Shown one piece after another: positions 1,055-28,600 of a stretch of DNA of 42,831 nucleotides (position 1 is its first letter; each line of letters opens with the position of its first letter). The DNA is from Bacilli bacterium (GTDB lineage: Bacteria; Bacillota_I; Bacilli_A; RF39; UBA660). The DNA lies in contig JAGARQ010000048.1 in the NCBI GenBank assembly GCA_017622175.1, positions 1-42,831 of the forward strand, in the 5' to 3' direction. Below the pieces are notes generated by a model. The model worked only from the letters and a program-made list of their open reading frames with translations, did not search any database and was not told where the DNA came from. Both the position numbers and the translations under genes were made by a program.

Positions 1055-3133
1055 ATGAAAATAGTATTACAAGATGGATTTAAAGATTGTGGTGTTTGTT
1101 CACTATTAAGTATTATTAGATTTTATGGAGGAGAAGTATCTAAAGAATATTTAAGAGAAATAACAAACACCACTAAGAATGGTGTAAGTGCTTTTAATTT
1201 AATTGAAGGAGCAAGAAAATTAGGATTTGATGCTTACGGTGTGTGTGGTGACATGACAAATCTAAAAAATAATAACTTACCTTGCATCGCACATTTACTT
1301 GTTAGTAAAGAATATAAACATTTTGTTGTAATATATAAAATTGATGAAGAAAGTAAAAAACTTATGGTAATGGATCCAGCCAAAGGAAAAAGAATTATGT
1401 CTTTTTCAGAGTTTAAGTTACATTCTACTAATAATTTTATATTACTTAAACCAATTAAAGGTATTCCATCTTTTAATAATAAAAGAATGGTTTTAAAAAC
1501 CATTAGAAATATTTTTTATGAGAATAAAAAAATATTTCTTATATTGTTATTTTTAATATTAGTTTATTTTTTATTAAATATTTTAGTTTCATTTAGTTTT
1601 AAATATCTTCTTAAGTTTTCTATTGAATATAATGTTTCTACTAATATTGAAATAATATCTTTTGTTATTTTTAATTTATATATATTAAAAAGTTTTTCAG
1701 AATTTTTAAAGAACTTTTTCGTATTAAAAGTTAGTAGTATTATTGATGAAAAAATAACAATAAAAACTTTTAAACAAATCTTACTACTTCCATATTTATA
1801 TTATAAAAATAGAACTACTGGTGAAGTGATTACTAGACTTAAAGATTTAACTATTGTTAAGAATTATTTAATTAATTTATTTTCTACAATTATTATTGAT
1901 GGAATAAGTGTAATTTTATTTTTAGTTATTTTATTTAGTTTTAGTAAAACAATTACAATAATTATATTAGTATTGGTTTTGTTAATTTTGATTGTTAGTT
2001 TTATTAGAAATATTAAACAAAGAAAATTGTATTTAAAAGTATCTAAAGGAGAAGAGAAAGTTAATTCTTATTTATATGAAGCATTAAGTAATGTTGATAC
2101 AATAAAAGGTGGACATATTGAAAAGAGACTTTCCGATAAGTTTTTAATTATTTATAAAGATTTATTAGAAAAAAATTATATATATTTAGTATTTGAAAAT
2201 ATTAGTAAGTTTATTAAAGATAATATAATGGGACTTTTAAATTTAGTTGTTTATTGTCTTGGATGCATTTTAATATTAAAAGATAAAATAAGTATTGGAG
2301 ATATTATGTTATATCAGTCGTTTTTGATGTATTTTATTAATGGCCTTTCTGGAATATTAAGATTAATTGAAGAATACCATAATTATAAAATTTCATTAGA
2401 TAGAGTAGAAGATTTATATACGTTAACTAGTGAAAAGTTTAATGGTTCTTATTACTATTATGGGTATTTATTAGATGGAGATATTAAATTTAATAATTTA
2501 TCTTATAAGTATGGAAATAAGCTTATTTTAAATTCTATTAATTTAGTTATTAAAAGAGGTGAGAAGATTTTATTAACTGGAGAAAGTGGAAGTGGGAAAA
2601 GTAGTTTAGTTAAGATATTAATGAGATATTTAGAAGTTCCTTATGGAATGTGTTCTATTAGTGATATTGATATTAATCATTATCATTTAGATAATATTAG
2701 AAAAAATATTTCATATGTATCAAGTAATGAATTTTTATTTACAGATAGTTTATATAATAATTTAACTTTGGAAAAAGATGTATTAGACGATGAATTAAAT
2801 GAAGTTTGTAAAATTACAAAAGTTAATGAAATTTTACAAAAAAGGGATTCTAATTATAAAATGATGGTTGAAGAAAATGGATTTAATTTTAGTAATGGTG
2901 AACGACAAAGAATTATTCTTTGTAGATATTTGCTTAGAAAAAGTAATATTTATATTTTTGATGAAGCGTTTGGTCAGATTGATATAGATAAAGAAAGAGA
3001 AATACTAAAAAATGTTTTTTTATATTTAAAAGATAAGACTGTTATTGTGATAAGTCATAGGGTAAATAATAAAGATTTATTTGATAGATGGATTAGTTTA
3101 AAAGATGGGAAAATTTATGAAGAAAAACTATGA
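1055..3133 (+). CDS. Peptidase-containing ABC transporter for double-glycine peptides
   Basis: This PCAT-type exporter cleaves the leader of double-glycine peptides and pumps the core out. Residues 1-135 are a C39 cysteine peptidase with oxyanion Gln6, catalytic Cys12 (QDGFKDCGVC), His89 (KHFVVIY) and Asp107 (MVMDP). Residues 155-430 hold about six membrane segments. Residues 475-692 are the ATPase: Walker A GESGSGKS at 509, signature FSNGERQR at 612 instead of LSGGQ, Walker B YIFDE at 633, and H-loop His668. The usual Q-loop glutamine appears to be Ser (YVSS, 554-557). Length (692 aa) is typical. An AGGAGGT at 1032 lies about 16 bases before the ATG, too far for a normal site, yet an in-frame TAA at 1046 rules out an earlier start. 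It overlaps the next gene and heads the peptide operon. Confidence 0.93.
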   Translation: MKIVLQDGFKDCGVCSLLSIIRFYGGEVSKEYLREITNTTKNGVSAFNLIEGARKLGFDAYGVCGDMTNLKNNNLPCIAHLLVSKEYKHFVVIYKIDEESKKLMVMDPAKGKRIMSFSEFKLHSTNNFILLKPIKGIPSFNNKRMVLKTIRNIFYENKKIFLILLFLILVYFLLNILVSFSFKYLLKFSIEYNVSTNIEIISFVIFNLYILKSFSEFLKNFFVLKVSSIIDEKITIKTFKQILLLPYLYYKNRTTGEVITRLKDLTIVKNYLINLFSTIIIDGISVILFLVILFSFSKTITIIILVLVLLILIVSFIRNIKQRKLYLKVSKGEEKVNSYLYEALSNVDTIKGGHIEKRLSDKFLIIYKDLLEKNYIYLVFENISKFIKDNIMGLLNLVVYCLGCILILKDKISIGDIMLYQSFLMYFINGLSGILRLIEEYHNYKISLDRVEDLYTLTSEKFNGSYYYYGYLLDGDIKFNNLSYKYGNKLILNSINLVIKRGEKILLTGESGSGKSSLVKILMRYLEVPYGMCSISDIDINHYHLDNIRKNISYVSSNEFLFTDSLYNNLTLEKDVLDDELNEVCKITKVNEILQKRDSNYKMMVEENGFNFSNGERQRIILCRYLLRKSNIYIFDEAFGQIDIDKEREILKNVFLYLKDKTVIVISHRVNNKDLFDRWISLKDGKIYEEKL

Positions 3134-3524
3134 TAATTTTAATAAGTGTTTTATTTTATTATTTATTTTTTTGATTTATTTTTCCTTTTTATTTATATTT
3201 TTGTTTAATAAAAAACTAATTATTTTTAAAGTATTTAATGGAGTTGTTTTTGATAATAATAATGTTTTATTAGTACTTAATGATGATGAGTTAAAAATAT
3301 TTAATAAGAATAAAAAGTTATATATAAATAATAAGAGTTATGTGTTTAATATTTCGAAGATTGATAATGATGTATTAGAAAGGAATGGTGATAAATATAA
3401 TAATGTATTTATTGAAGTTAATTTACCTAATATGTATAAAGTAGGAGATGTATTAAGTCTTACTATTATGAATGATAGAAAATGTCTTTTTAAAATATTT
3501 AATGTAATATGGGATGGTGATTAA
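3117..3524 (+). CDS. Membrane-anchored transport accessory protein, HlyD-like
   Basis: A short protein (135 aa from ATG 3117; ATG 3105 is an alternative giving 139 aa). One very hydrophobic segment near residues 10-30 is followed by a small beta-rich outside domain. Its tail (EVNLPNMYKVGDVLSLTIMN) resembles the end of membrane fusion proteins of the HlyD/ComB type, but the protein is far shorter than the usual 450 aa and lacks the long coiled coil. It starts inside the transporter gene and its end overlaps the first precursor peptide, so it is tightly coupled to both. I infer an adaptor that helps the ABC exporter. Immunity or an unrelated membrane role cannot be excluded. The HlyD link is weak and by eye. 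Confidence 0.55.
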   Translation: MKKNYDNFNKCFILLFIFLIYFSFLFIFLFNKKLIIFKVFNGVVFDNNNVLLVLNDDELKIFNKNKKLYINNKSYVFNISKIDNDVLERNGDKYNNVFIEVNLPNMYKVGDVLSLTIMNDRKCLFKIFNVIWDGD

Positions 3525-3669
3525 TATAAAAAAAATTAGTGATGAAAAGTTAGAAAAAATATCCGGTGGTGGAATTGAATGGTTAGGAATAGGTGTTGGT
3601 ATTGCGACATTAATAGTTTTTATTTCGGGTATTATTGAAGGTTATACAAACCCAGGGAGGTGTAATTGA
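3514..3669 (+). CDS. Double-glycine bacteriocin-like precursor peptide A
   Basis: A 51-aa ORF too short for ordinary ORF calling. The leader MVINIKKISDEKLEKISGG has the double-glycine pattern (Leu -7, Ile -4, Gly -2, Gly -1) that C39 peptidases recognise. The predicted core is 32 residues, starting GIEWLGIGVG, hydrophobic, with GxxxG at core 6-10 and 20-24, one Cys near the end (PGRCN), and no visible lanthionine pattern. The ATG at 3514 lies 10 bases inside the preceding gene, and the ribosome site is weak, so translation is probably coupled. The stop overlaps the start of peptide B (TGATG). GxxxG helices in paired short peptides are typical of class IIb two-peptide bacteriocins. A signalling peptide is the other option. 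Confidence 0.75.
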   Translation: MVINIKKISDEKLEKISGGGIEWLGIGVGIATLIVFISGIIEGYTNPGRCN

Positions 3670-3842
3670 TGGAGTGTATTGATGATATAAAGTTAGAGAA
3701 AATATCTGGTGGAGGCACCACAATAACTGGTACATTAATTAGTGCATTTGGTGAAGTTTTTAAAATCTTTTTTGAGGCTGGTCATTCAGTAGGTTCATCT
3801 ATTAGAAGAATGAGTAATAAAGAATTATGTCCAATAAAGTAA
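3669..3842 (+). CDS. Double-glycine bacteriocin-like precursor peptide B
   Basis: A 57-aa ORF with a very strong ribosome site, GGGAGGTG at 3655-3662, six bases before the ATG. The 15-residue leader MECIDDIKLEKISGG shares KLEKISGGG with peptide A, so both should be cut by the same C39 peptidase. The 42-residue core begins GTTITGTLIS, contains a GxxxG (GHSVG at core 23-27), an amphipathic hydrophobic first half and a cationic end (SIRRMSNKEL) with one Cys. Adjacent placement and the shared leader suggest the two peptides act as a pair. The 3' end overlaps another small ORF by 16 bases. Confidence 0.78.
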   Translation: MECIDDIKLEKISGGGTTITGTLISAFGEVFKIFFEAGHSVGSSIRRMSNKELCPIK

Positions 3843-3967
3843 AACACTTTTTAATTGGTTGTTTCTTCATTATTTTAGGGATTTGTAGTTGTCCAATACT
3901 TTGTCGTTTTTGGAGATGGATATTTTATTTAGGTTTACTTGTTGGAAAATATTTGCGTTTTTTGTAA
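3827..3967 (+). CDS. Small hydrophobic protein, candidate bacteriocin immunity protein
   Basis: A 46-aa ORF starting 16 bases before the stop of peptide B. It begins MSNKVKHFLIG and has two hydrophobic stretches (about residues 8-26 and 28-40) split by Arg/Trp (CRFWRW), with four Cys at 12, 20, 22 and 26 and a basic end. In class IIb loci a small membrane immunity gene usually follows the two structural genes, and this is the only ORF in that place. The ribosome site is poor (GAG about 12 bases upstream), so it would depend on coupling. No homology is recognised; it could be a chance ORF. Confidence 0.45.
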   Translation: MSNKVKHFLIGCFFIILGICSCPILCRFWRWIFYLGLLVGKYLRFL

Positions 3968-4067: not shown

Positions 4068-4268
4068 ATGGCAACTAAAGTAACTGTTAGAGGTAATTTA
4101 GATCAAGCTCTAAGAAAGTTTAAACAAAAAGTAGCAAGAGACGGTGTCCCTTCAGAATTCAAAAAAAGAGAAGCTTACGATAAACCAGGAGTAAGAAGAA
4201 GACTTGCTAAAAAAGAAGGTATTAAAAATTCTCAAAAGAGAAATCGTGCAAACAATAGAGATTATTAA
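4068..4268 (+). CDS. rpsU: 30S ribosomal protein bS21
   Basis: A small basic protein of the 30S subunit that lies near the 3' end of 16S rRNA and helps mRNA recognition. The 66-aa sequence is full length for the family: an N-terminal strand with VTVRGNLDQALRKFKQK, the conserved EFKKREAYDKPGVRRR and a lysine/arginine-rich helix (KKEGIKNSQKRNRAN). AGGGAGG at 4054-4060 is the ribosome site. As in Bacillus it lies upstream of yqeY, but here one extra gene separates them. It has its own promoter, and its stop codon lies in the terminator stem, giving a single-gene unit. Confidence 0.95.
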   Translation: MATKVTVRGNLDQALRKFKQKVARDGVPSEFKKREAYDKPGVRRRLAKKEGIKNSQKRNRANNRDY

Positions 4269-5770: not shown

Positions 5771-5815
5771 GTTTTGTTTTTATATTTTTTTCATATACTT
5801 TTATAGGTGATGGTA

Positions 5816-6055
5816 ATGCTTAGACGAGTATATGAATATGTAAAAGATGAAGAATTTAGATTTACTGTTTATAATGATAGAATTCATTTTATTAATTTTT
5901 TAAAGATTAATACTTTAAATAGTGATTATGTTTTGATTGAAAGTAATGATAGAAAGATTAGTATTAAAGGGAAAAATTTAATATTAAATAGACTATTAGA
6001 AAAAGAAGTGTTAATTATTGGAGATATTTATGGTATAGAGGTTATTTATGGATAA
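5816..6055 (+). CDS. yqfC: Sporulation protein YqfC family
   Basis: A 79-aa protein of the YqfC/YabP-like family, which works with YqfD in endospore formation in the mother cell. The sequence has the short strand-rich pattern of the family (FRFTVYNDRIHFINF, then SDYVLIESNDRKISIKGKNL). The ATG at 5816 is six bases after AGGTG (5805-5809); GTG 5807 and ATG 5810 overlap that site. The start of yqfD lies 8 bases inside its end. In Bacillus yqfC-yqfD lie in this same neighbourhood. A housekeeping promoter is not obvious upstream, which would fit a sporulation sigma factor. Confidence 0.82.
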   Translation: MLRRVYEYVKDEEFRFTVYNDRIHFINFLKINTLNSDYVLIESNDRKISIKGKNLILNRLLEKEVLIIGDIYGIEVIYG

Positions 6056-7202
6056 ATATAAATTATGTATTAAAGGAAAAAATCCCGATTATTTTTTAAG
6101 AAAAATAATTGATAAAAAAATTAATATATATGAGATTGAAAAAGGTTTTAAAAAATTATGTATTGTTGTTGACGATGATGGTTATAAAGTTATAAAGAAA
6201 ATTAAAACTAGTTATGATATTGAATTATTAAGTGTTAGTGGTTTTTTAAAAATAAAAGAGGTATTTCATAAATATTTCTTTTTTATATTATTTTTTGTAA
6301 TGGGTATTTTTCTTAATATATTTTTAAGTAATATTATATTTGATGTTGAAGTTGTACATTCTAATAAAGAAGTTAGAGAAATTATTTATAATGATTTAGA
6401 AAAGTTAGGTATTAGTAAATTTAAATTTAAAGTTAGTTTTTCTAAAAAAGAGAAGATTATTAAAGAAATTTTAAATAAAGAAAAAGAAGATATTGAGTGG
6501 TTAGAAATAGAGGAGATTGGTACTAAATATTTAGTTAAAGTTGAACAAAGAAAATTAAATGATAATAATGATATTTGTAATAATAGAGATATTGTAGCGA
6601 AGAAGAATGCTATTATTTTAGAAATATTTGCGGAAAGTGGAGAAGTTATAAAAAAGAAAAATGATTATGTATTAAAAGATGAGGTTATTATAAGTGGAGT
6701 TATTCATAATAAAGAAGATATTGTTTCTAATAAATGTAGCGTGGGTAAAGTATTTGGAGAAGTATGGTATAAAGTGGATGTTTCTTTACCCACAAAGTAT
6801 AGTGAAAGTAATAAAACTGGAAAAAGTAATTATAGATTTAGATATAAATTTTTAGATAAAGAATATTTGTTGTTTAATAAATTTGATAATTATAAAGAAG
6901 AAAATATTTTTGAATTTTCTAATAAATTATTACCTATTAGTTTTGGTTTTTCTAAATACTATGAAGTTATAAAAAAAGATATAATTTATACTATTGATAA
7001 TTGTGATGAAGAGGCTTTAAAAATAGCTTTAGAAAAGTTATTATTAAAACTTGGTAAAGAGGATGTAATACTTACTAAAAAAGTTTTGAAAAAAGAGGTA
7101 AAAAATAGTAAAATATTAGTAGAAGTATTTTTTAAAGTAAAAGAAGATATTACTTCTTATAGAGATATAGTAATAGATGAGGCAAAAGAGGAAGGTGATT
7201 AA
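6048..7202 (+). CDS. yqfD: Sporulation protein YqfD
   Basis: A 384-aa membrane protein close to the usual length of about 390. Residues 1-75 form a basic cytoplasmic part with repeated strands (IKGKNPDYFLRKIIDKKI...), residues 88-112 the transmembrane helix (KYFFFILFFVMGIFLNIFLS), and the rest an outside domain with WLEIEEIGTKYLVKVEQRKL, which is typical of YqfD, followed by VSGxVWY-like KVFGEVWYKVDVSLP. It is required for efficient sporulation in Bacillus; its molecular role is not settled. It overlaps yqfC by 8 bases. The usual next genes, phoH and pgpH, are missing here. Confidence 0.87.
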   Translation: MDKYKLCIKGKNPDYFLRKIIDKKINIYEIEKGFKKLCIVVDDDGYKVIKKIKTSYDIELLSVSGFLKIKEVFHKYFFFILFFVMGIFLNIFLSNIIFDVEVVHSNKEVREIIYNDLEKLGISKFKFKVSFSKKEKIIKEILNKEKEDIEWLEIEEIGTKYLVKVEQRKLNDNNDICNNRDIVAKKNAIILEIFAESGEVIKKKNDYVLKDEVIISGVIHNKEDIVSNKCSVGKVFGEVWYKVDVSLPTKYSESNKTGKSNYRFRYKFLDKEYLLFNKFDNYKEENIFEFSNKLLPISFGFSKYYEVIKKDIIYTIDNCDEEALKIALEKLLLKLGKEDVILTKKVLKKEVKNSKILVEVFFKVKEDITSYRDIVIDEAKEEGD

Positions 7203-28384: not shown

Positions 28385-28600
28385 CTCATATCGATGGTGA
28401 TCGGGGAGTAGTAATTATTGATTACTTTATAGAGACTTTGTGGTTAGGTGGAAACAAAGAGGTATAAATAATGAATTCGTCCCGGGAGTCCTTACTAATA
28501 ATAAGCGTAGCTTCGCGTTAAGAAGATTTAAGTGTATAGTAGCAACTATAAAATAAGGTGGTACCGCGAATTTTGTCGTCCTTATGTTATAGTTGCTTTT
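28385..28600 (+). promoter_or_regulatory. T-box riboswitch of pheST
   Basis: The 310-base gap between frr and pheS is filled by a TATAAT promoter (28376-28381, weak -35) and this leader. The T-box core GGTGGTACCGCG is at 28557-28568, with CGTCCTTA about ten bases after it. The terminator stem is AGCAACTATAAAATAAGG (28541-28558) with CCTTATGTTATAGTTGCT and a T run. A GAATTCG context near 28472 is the likely specifier loop with TTC (Phe). Uncharged tRNA-Phe would permit read-through into pheS. Confidence 0.9.

Follow-up and report, generated by a model that had tools for sequence, protein, structure and literature searches.

An order-wide C39 exporter locus with a putative class IIb-type peptide pair in RF39 Bacilli

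A C39-type ABC exporter followed by tiny open reading frames (ORFs) with double-glycine (GG) leaders raises the question of what is exported: a two-peptide bacteriocin, a signalling pair or something else. Such a locus lies near one end of the 42,831-nucleotide stretch of DNA analysed in this study (contig JAGARQ010000048.1 of assembly GCA_017622175.1; hereafter the window), which comes from a 1.43-Mb genome in 66 contigs. Its near relatives are uncultured "Bacilli" or "Erysipelotrichaceae" MAGs, several of them from goat, roe deer, rabbit or rumen, and the GTDB order RF39 (family UBA660) to which it belongs is predicted to be mostly thin-walled (PMC10868615). The initial annotation had read five ORFs here and proposed a new class IIb bacteriocin. 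All five were found at the positions claimed (Table 1), each overlapping its successor, by 17, 8-11, 1 and 16 nt in order along the locus. The conserved start of the accessory gene is the ATG at 3117, rather than an upstream start at 3105, and its end is at 3524; judging from two relatives (L009 and L010), the conserved start of peptide A may be the GTG at 3517. The rpsU gene reported beside the locus is likewise present (4068-4268; Ribosomal_S21, 53.7 bits). No earlier account of the locus was found in the open-licence literature, which is weak evidence limited to that scope.

Table 1. Features of the exporter locus and a further annotated element of the window
Feature	Position	Strand	Description
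C39-peptidase-containing ABC exporter (PCAT)	1055..3133	+	692 aa; Pfam domains over cut-off
Accessory protein	3117..3524	+	135 aa; one membrane helix and beta-barrel (predicted)
Peptide A precursor	3514..3669	+	51 aa; GG leader; core GIEWLGIGVGIATLIVFISGIIEGYTNPGRCN
Peptide B precursor	3669..3842	+	57 aa; GG leader; core GTTITGTLISAFGEVFKIFFEAGHSVGSSIRRMSNKELCPIK
Small hydrophobic ORF	3827..3967	+	46 aa; no leader; like C-terminal half of peptide B
T-box leader	28388-28586	+	RF00230, 124.5 bits

The exporter was rightly described as C39-type: Peptidase_C39, ABC_membrane and ABC_tran domains each score over the Pfam cut-off, and the protease residues Gln6, Cys12, His89 and Asp107 are kept wherever they are aligned among 90 homologues. 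No other match in its genome is full-length; the rest cover just the ATPase and membrane parts. Among solved structures it is closest to 4ry2 (PCAT1, an ABC-type bacteriocin transporter) and the pheromone exporter ComA, both of which have the same domain order (~690-aa alignments, E 7e-88 and 7e-79) but a different cargo. Against TIGR01193 it scores 344 bits, under the curated cut-off of 524.

An AlphaFold2 model of the accessory protein, built with 15 sequences (pLDDT 86.5), contains a long N-terminal helix and a beta-barrel. No fold was significant by E-value in a Foldseek search with this model; several membrane fusion proteins recur among the matches, and HlyD of the HlyB/D complex has the top listed TM-score (0.53, query). 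We read the modelled protein as a putative minimal adaptor of the HlyD (membrane fusion protein) type. In a minority of loci no accessory gene was detected between the exporter and the peptides, peptide A lying directly 3' of the exporter; loci without the ORF where peptide A abuts or overlaps the exporter end are L058, L062, L068, L085, L088, L093, L096 and L097. Mycoplasmas have a comparable arrangement, the Mbov_0121/MAG1140 pair (NF045998, NF045999), in which a small single-helix accessory protein comes after a C39-type exporter; the profiles of this pair match both window proteins weakly and under both NCBIfam cut-offs (accessory protein versus NF045999, 16.3 bits, curated cut-off 35 bits). 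The MAG1140 loci of mycoplasmas that were read have, as judged from their ORFs, ybeY-, cdd- and era-like neighbours and no adjoining peptide pair. In the mycoplasma-like genomes of L194-L200, a MAG1140-type gene lies directly 3' of an ABC exporter, of which the C-terminal half alone is in the stretch.

Both peptide precursors contain the KLEKISGGG stretch described as common to them, and the reported number of GxxxG motifs (two in core A, one in core B) was also correct. Family-wide, the leaders mostly have Leu at -7 and Ile or Val at -4, followed by Gly-Gly. Core A (median 31 aa) has the C-terminal pattern F-[LI]-x-G-x-x-x-G-[YF]-x-[NRH]-P-x-x-C, in which the two glycines are each conserved at 100%, the proline at 97% and the cysteine at 99%. 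Core B (median 41 aa) follows INAF...D-x-G-R-x-x-G-S-A-I-R-R......C-P-L, with glycines at 96 and 98%, arginines at 96 and 98% and the cysteine at 98%. Only the second GxxxG of A (precursor G39/G43) and the single one of B (G38/G42) are invariant across the family. Of 88 A cores, 76 have exactly one cysteine, as have 81 of 85 B cores, so that a disulfide between the two peptides is possible, which the sequences allow rather than demonstrate.

Known families recognise the two peptides unequally. Among 34 peptide A homologues, 26 match TIGR03949 (class IIb, lactobin A/cerein 7B) at E<0.01, several of them over the cut-off (up to 31.7 versus 21.5 bits), and 20 match lactococcin G-beta (NF038034), below cut-off where scores are shown; peptide A of the window itself reaches 16.8 bits against TIGR03949 (cut-off 21.5). 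Matches of peptide B to class IIb models are weak, lying over the leader where the stretch is shown, and no class IIb model recognises it beyond that leader. Its predicted structure, which is of low confidence, consists of one long helix alone. Gene finders using length cut-offs likely miss both peptides.

Of the family's 291 genomes, 262 have an exporter homologue (E<=1e-50), as do 190 of its 207 good genomes and 144 of 150 genera, and the homologue is nearly always single. This rules out a system restricted to the window's genus. Following the check proposed in the initial annotation, the DNA behind 90 exporter homologues was read: peptide A lies 3' of the exporter in 88 loci and peptide B in 87, and both tiny ORFs are in frame, in the same order and in the same place in ~87 of the 90. 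The count for B leaves out L066, whose B match is the same ORF as its peptide A; in L088, peptide B is cut by the contig end. Three genomes without B at the locus still carry it (G084, ~3 kb downstream; G191, on another contig; and G017), and all 90 genomes of the compared loci carry peptide B. A profile search found B in 359 of the order's 385 genomes (290 of the 306 good ones), the order sample searched being a single family; the shortfall of ~5% would be of the size expected from incomplete assemblies. A class-wide search of 395 genomes, ~54 of them from the window's family, returned full-length peptide B in 0 of the ~341 genomes from other families. The B profile matched 17 genomes of other Bacilli in the leader region alone (profile positions 1-36); ten such stretches were read, and any GG-leader ORF seen there was a different ORF. 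Other small ORFs with GG leaders were also seen in small mycoplasma-like genomes (L177, L179, L182, L184) and in other Bacilli families (L180, L181). They have a hydrophobic stretch, several with a C-terminal motif such as ..F.W(D/K), and are apparently unrelated cargo of other C39 exporters.

Genomes without B are informative about the link between peptides and exporter. No C39 was found in the B-less genomes G080, G082, G102, G127, G130, G141, G154, G158, G226 and G259, and G068 has a C39 match of 22.5 bits alone, in a 1073-aa ORF; G243 and G067 keep the exporter, and their contigs end directly after it or inside it. Conversely, all eight genomes that have B and fall under the exporter threshold (E<=1e-50) contain C39. 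A truly missing B thus goes with a missing exporter, which indicates that the peptides co-vary with it. The opposite pattern, named in the initial annotation as evidence against its own reading, was peptides lost beside a conserved transporter or varying independently of it; the peptides instead remain in frame and co-occur with the exporter. Apparent peptide losses with the exporter kept (L027, L036, L066, L107, L111, G029, G243, G067) are explained by peptides further off or on another contig, or by contig ends. At L027 (G084:C1:93825-99103), other sequence including a 358-aa ORF lies between the accessory gene and the peptides, which are kept, indicating that the operon can split without peptide loss.

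Pooled over 18 close pairs, pN/pS was 0.11/0.57 for core A and 0.14/0.58 for core B, against 0.17/0.58 in the exporter and 0.26/0.51 in the last ORF; both cores are more conserved than the exporter. On the exporter tree, 23 labelled genera need 22 label changes, which is the minimum, so every labelled genus groups together. Exporter and peptide distances are correlated (Mantel 0.53 and 0.44), with 0 of 2000 permutations as high. As judged from these comparisons, the system is inherited vertically under constraint (purifying selection) across the order. Mobile or plasmid cargo was considered and rejected, a peptide B homologue giving no plasmid match, as was phage cargo, the top phage-record matches to the exporter reaching just ~27-28% identity.

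The last ORF, where called, overlaps the stop of peptide B by 13-16 nt in most loci. In its profile the two glycines of a GxxxG motif are invariant and an arginine is kept at 90%. With hhalign this profile matches the C-terminal half of peptide B (probability 93.5, P 2.3e-7), and 0 of 200 column shuffles come near the score; no alignment to peptide A was obtained. Some members have B-like endings, for example ILFDSGQIIGDYIRRITEIGIC (L086). We infer that the last ORF is a candidate immunity or partner protein. It lies directly downstream of the peptides, where class IIb loci have their immunity gene, but was detected in just 59 of 88 loci. A genome-wide search of 16 genomes without a B-adjacent copy gave no convincing copy elsewhere, and the best match (G052) falls, by coordinates, within peptide B itself. 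With the last ORF undetected in about one third of loci, obligate self-protection by it is doubtful: if A and B together were always self-toxic, genomes without it would need another protector. In gallocin A of Streptococcus gallolyticus, immunity requires the third gene, gip, which also suffices for it; the gip product was modelled as a look-alike of both gallocin A peptides (PMC10100652). The likeness of the last ORF to B, taken with this precedent, suggests decoy immunity.

Taken together, we lean towards the reading that the products of the locus are a class IIb-type pair of membrane-active peptides, whose killing activity is putative. Similar to class IIb systems (TIGR03949, lactobin A/cerein 7B; NF038034, lactococcin G-beta), it has two adjoining short GG-leader peptides, GxxxG helices, a dedicated C39 ABC exporter and a small hydrophobic ORF after the peptides. 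The class IIb assignment made initially is thus supported in part, by anatomy, leaders, exporter, GxxxG motifs, A homologues over the TIGR03949 cut-off and the co-occurrence of peptides and exporter. A class IIb system proper would also show synergistic killing, optimal when both peptides act together. The idea of a new bacteriocin as an isolated locus is not supported: the system is near-universal and vertical throughout the order, with cores that have changed less than the exporter. Bacteriocins are usually patchy, mobile and fast-changing. In our best reading, class IIb anatomy is the known part and order-wide retention, in place of the usual trading of bacteriocins, is what differs here. 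Further differences from class IIb are the slow evolution in single copy, one C-terminal cysteine per core and a last ORF that is not constant.

By analogy with the known family, the C39 domain would trim both leaders after the GG, and the exporter with its minimal adaptor would push the cores out. A and B might then associate within a membrane by way of their invariant GxxxG helices, with a possible bond between the lone C-terminal cysteine of each, and together would permeabilise target cells. Where present, the last-ORF product may protect the producer by mimicking the helix of B (GxxxGxxxR), staying in the producer membrane and pairing with A in B's place, as proposed for the gallocin A immunity protein. 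For a core-genome trait of the order, targets are more likely to lie outside the lineage, or the pair might serve a lineage-wide process such as fratricide. Several observations weigh against such a weapon: typical bacteriocins are not near-universal, single-copy and slow to evolve, as these peptides are; the last ORF is frequently undetected with no copy elsewhere in the 16 such genomes searched; peptide A of the window falls short of the TIGR03949 threshold; and B lacks a class IIb match of its own.

Gallocin A (GllA1, GllA2, GIP; PMC10100652) resembles the present system in having two GG peptides with cysteine-containing cores and a peptide-like third small gene; it differs in having two cysteines per peptide, which form an intramolecular bond, where each core here has one, and in a regulated, strain-specific locus as opposed to an order-wide one. 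The Cdz system of Caulobacter (CdzC/CdzD; PMC5380434) can be likened to the present one in design, with type I secretion, two small glycine-motif proteins and a small membrane immunity protein; the proteins are different, and Cdz has a two-membrane host, divergent operons and contact dependence.

A tentative alternative, which we judge possible but would not favour, is that the class IIb-type pair is a core, inherited, order-wide factor with a role other than or beyond killing, in which the B-like protein would be a membrane-resident regulator and not classical immunity. The main rival to our preferred reading, and less likely than it, is a non-killing, lineage-wide secreted pair. A and B would work in the producer's envelope or take part in some common process such as division, sporulation, response to membrane stress or host contact, and the last ORF, where present, would be a third, membrane-resident partner. 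Presence in ~95% of good genomes of the order, strict vertical inheritance and cores more conserved than the exporter speak for such a role, although the same would be seen with a conserved weapon whose targets lie outside the lineage. The persistence of A and B where the putative immunity ORF is undetected also favours it, as does the similar exporter and accessory pair adjoining housekeeping-type genes in mycoplasmas, but the peptide design and profile matches indicate class IIb bacteriocins, and a mechanism of immunity already known would account for a last ORF that resembles B.

The signalling pair that the initial annotation offered as an alternative, a pheromone pair exported by a ComA-like PCAT, is improbable. 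The resemblance of the exporter to ComA as well as the GG leaders would suit it, but the ORFs flanking the operon, in the window and in the loci read, include no recognisable histidine kinase, response regulator or receptor, and the alternative gains no support from these surroundings. Two co-conserved hydrophobic GxxxG peptides with a B look-alike are, moreover, unlike known pheromones, and signals usually diversify whereas A and B are conserved. Chance ORFs beside a real transporter, suggested by the AT-rich genome and by lengths of just 51, 57 and 46 aa, are scarcely credible and can be dismissed, since recurrence in frame, order and place in ~87 of 90 loci, together with invariant residues and pN well under pS, excludes chance.

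An order-wide, single-copy, slow-evolving pair in uncultured gut bacteria would mean either that two-peptide weapons can become fixed equipment or that class IIb-like pairs serve roles outside warfare. The ~90 natural peptide pairs, some accompanied by the B-like protein and some not, provide a series for studying pair assembly and look-alike immunity.

Just 5' of the exporter, the element initially called a small RNA (~874-989) is 116 nt long and structured with its own terminator. It matched no Rfam family and is kept in the three genomes of the genus (L001, L009, L010); beyond the genus no copy was found, the other matches being the terminator hairpin alone. On the other side of the locus, downstream of yqeY, the window contains YabP-like and YqfD-like sporulation-family genes (5807-7202), which would fit a lineage that sporulates or once did.
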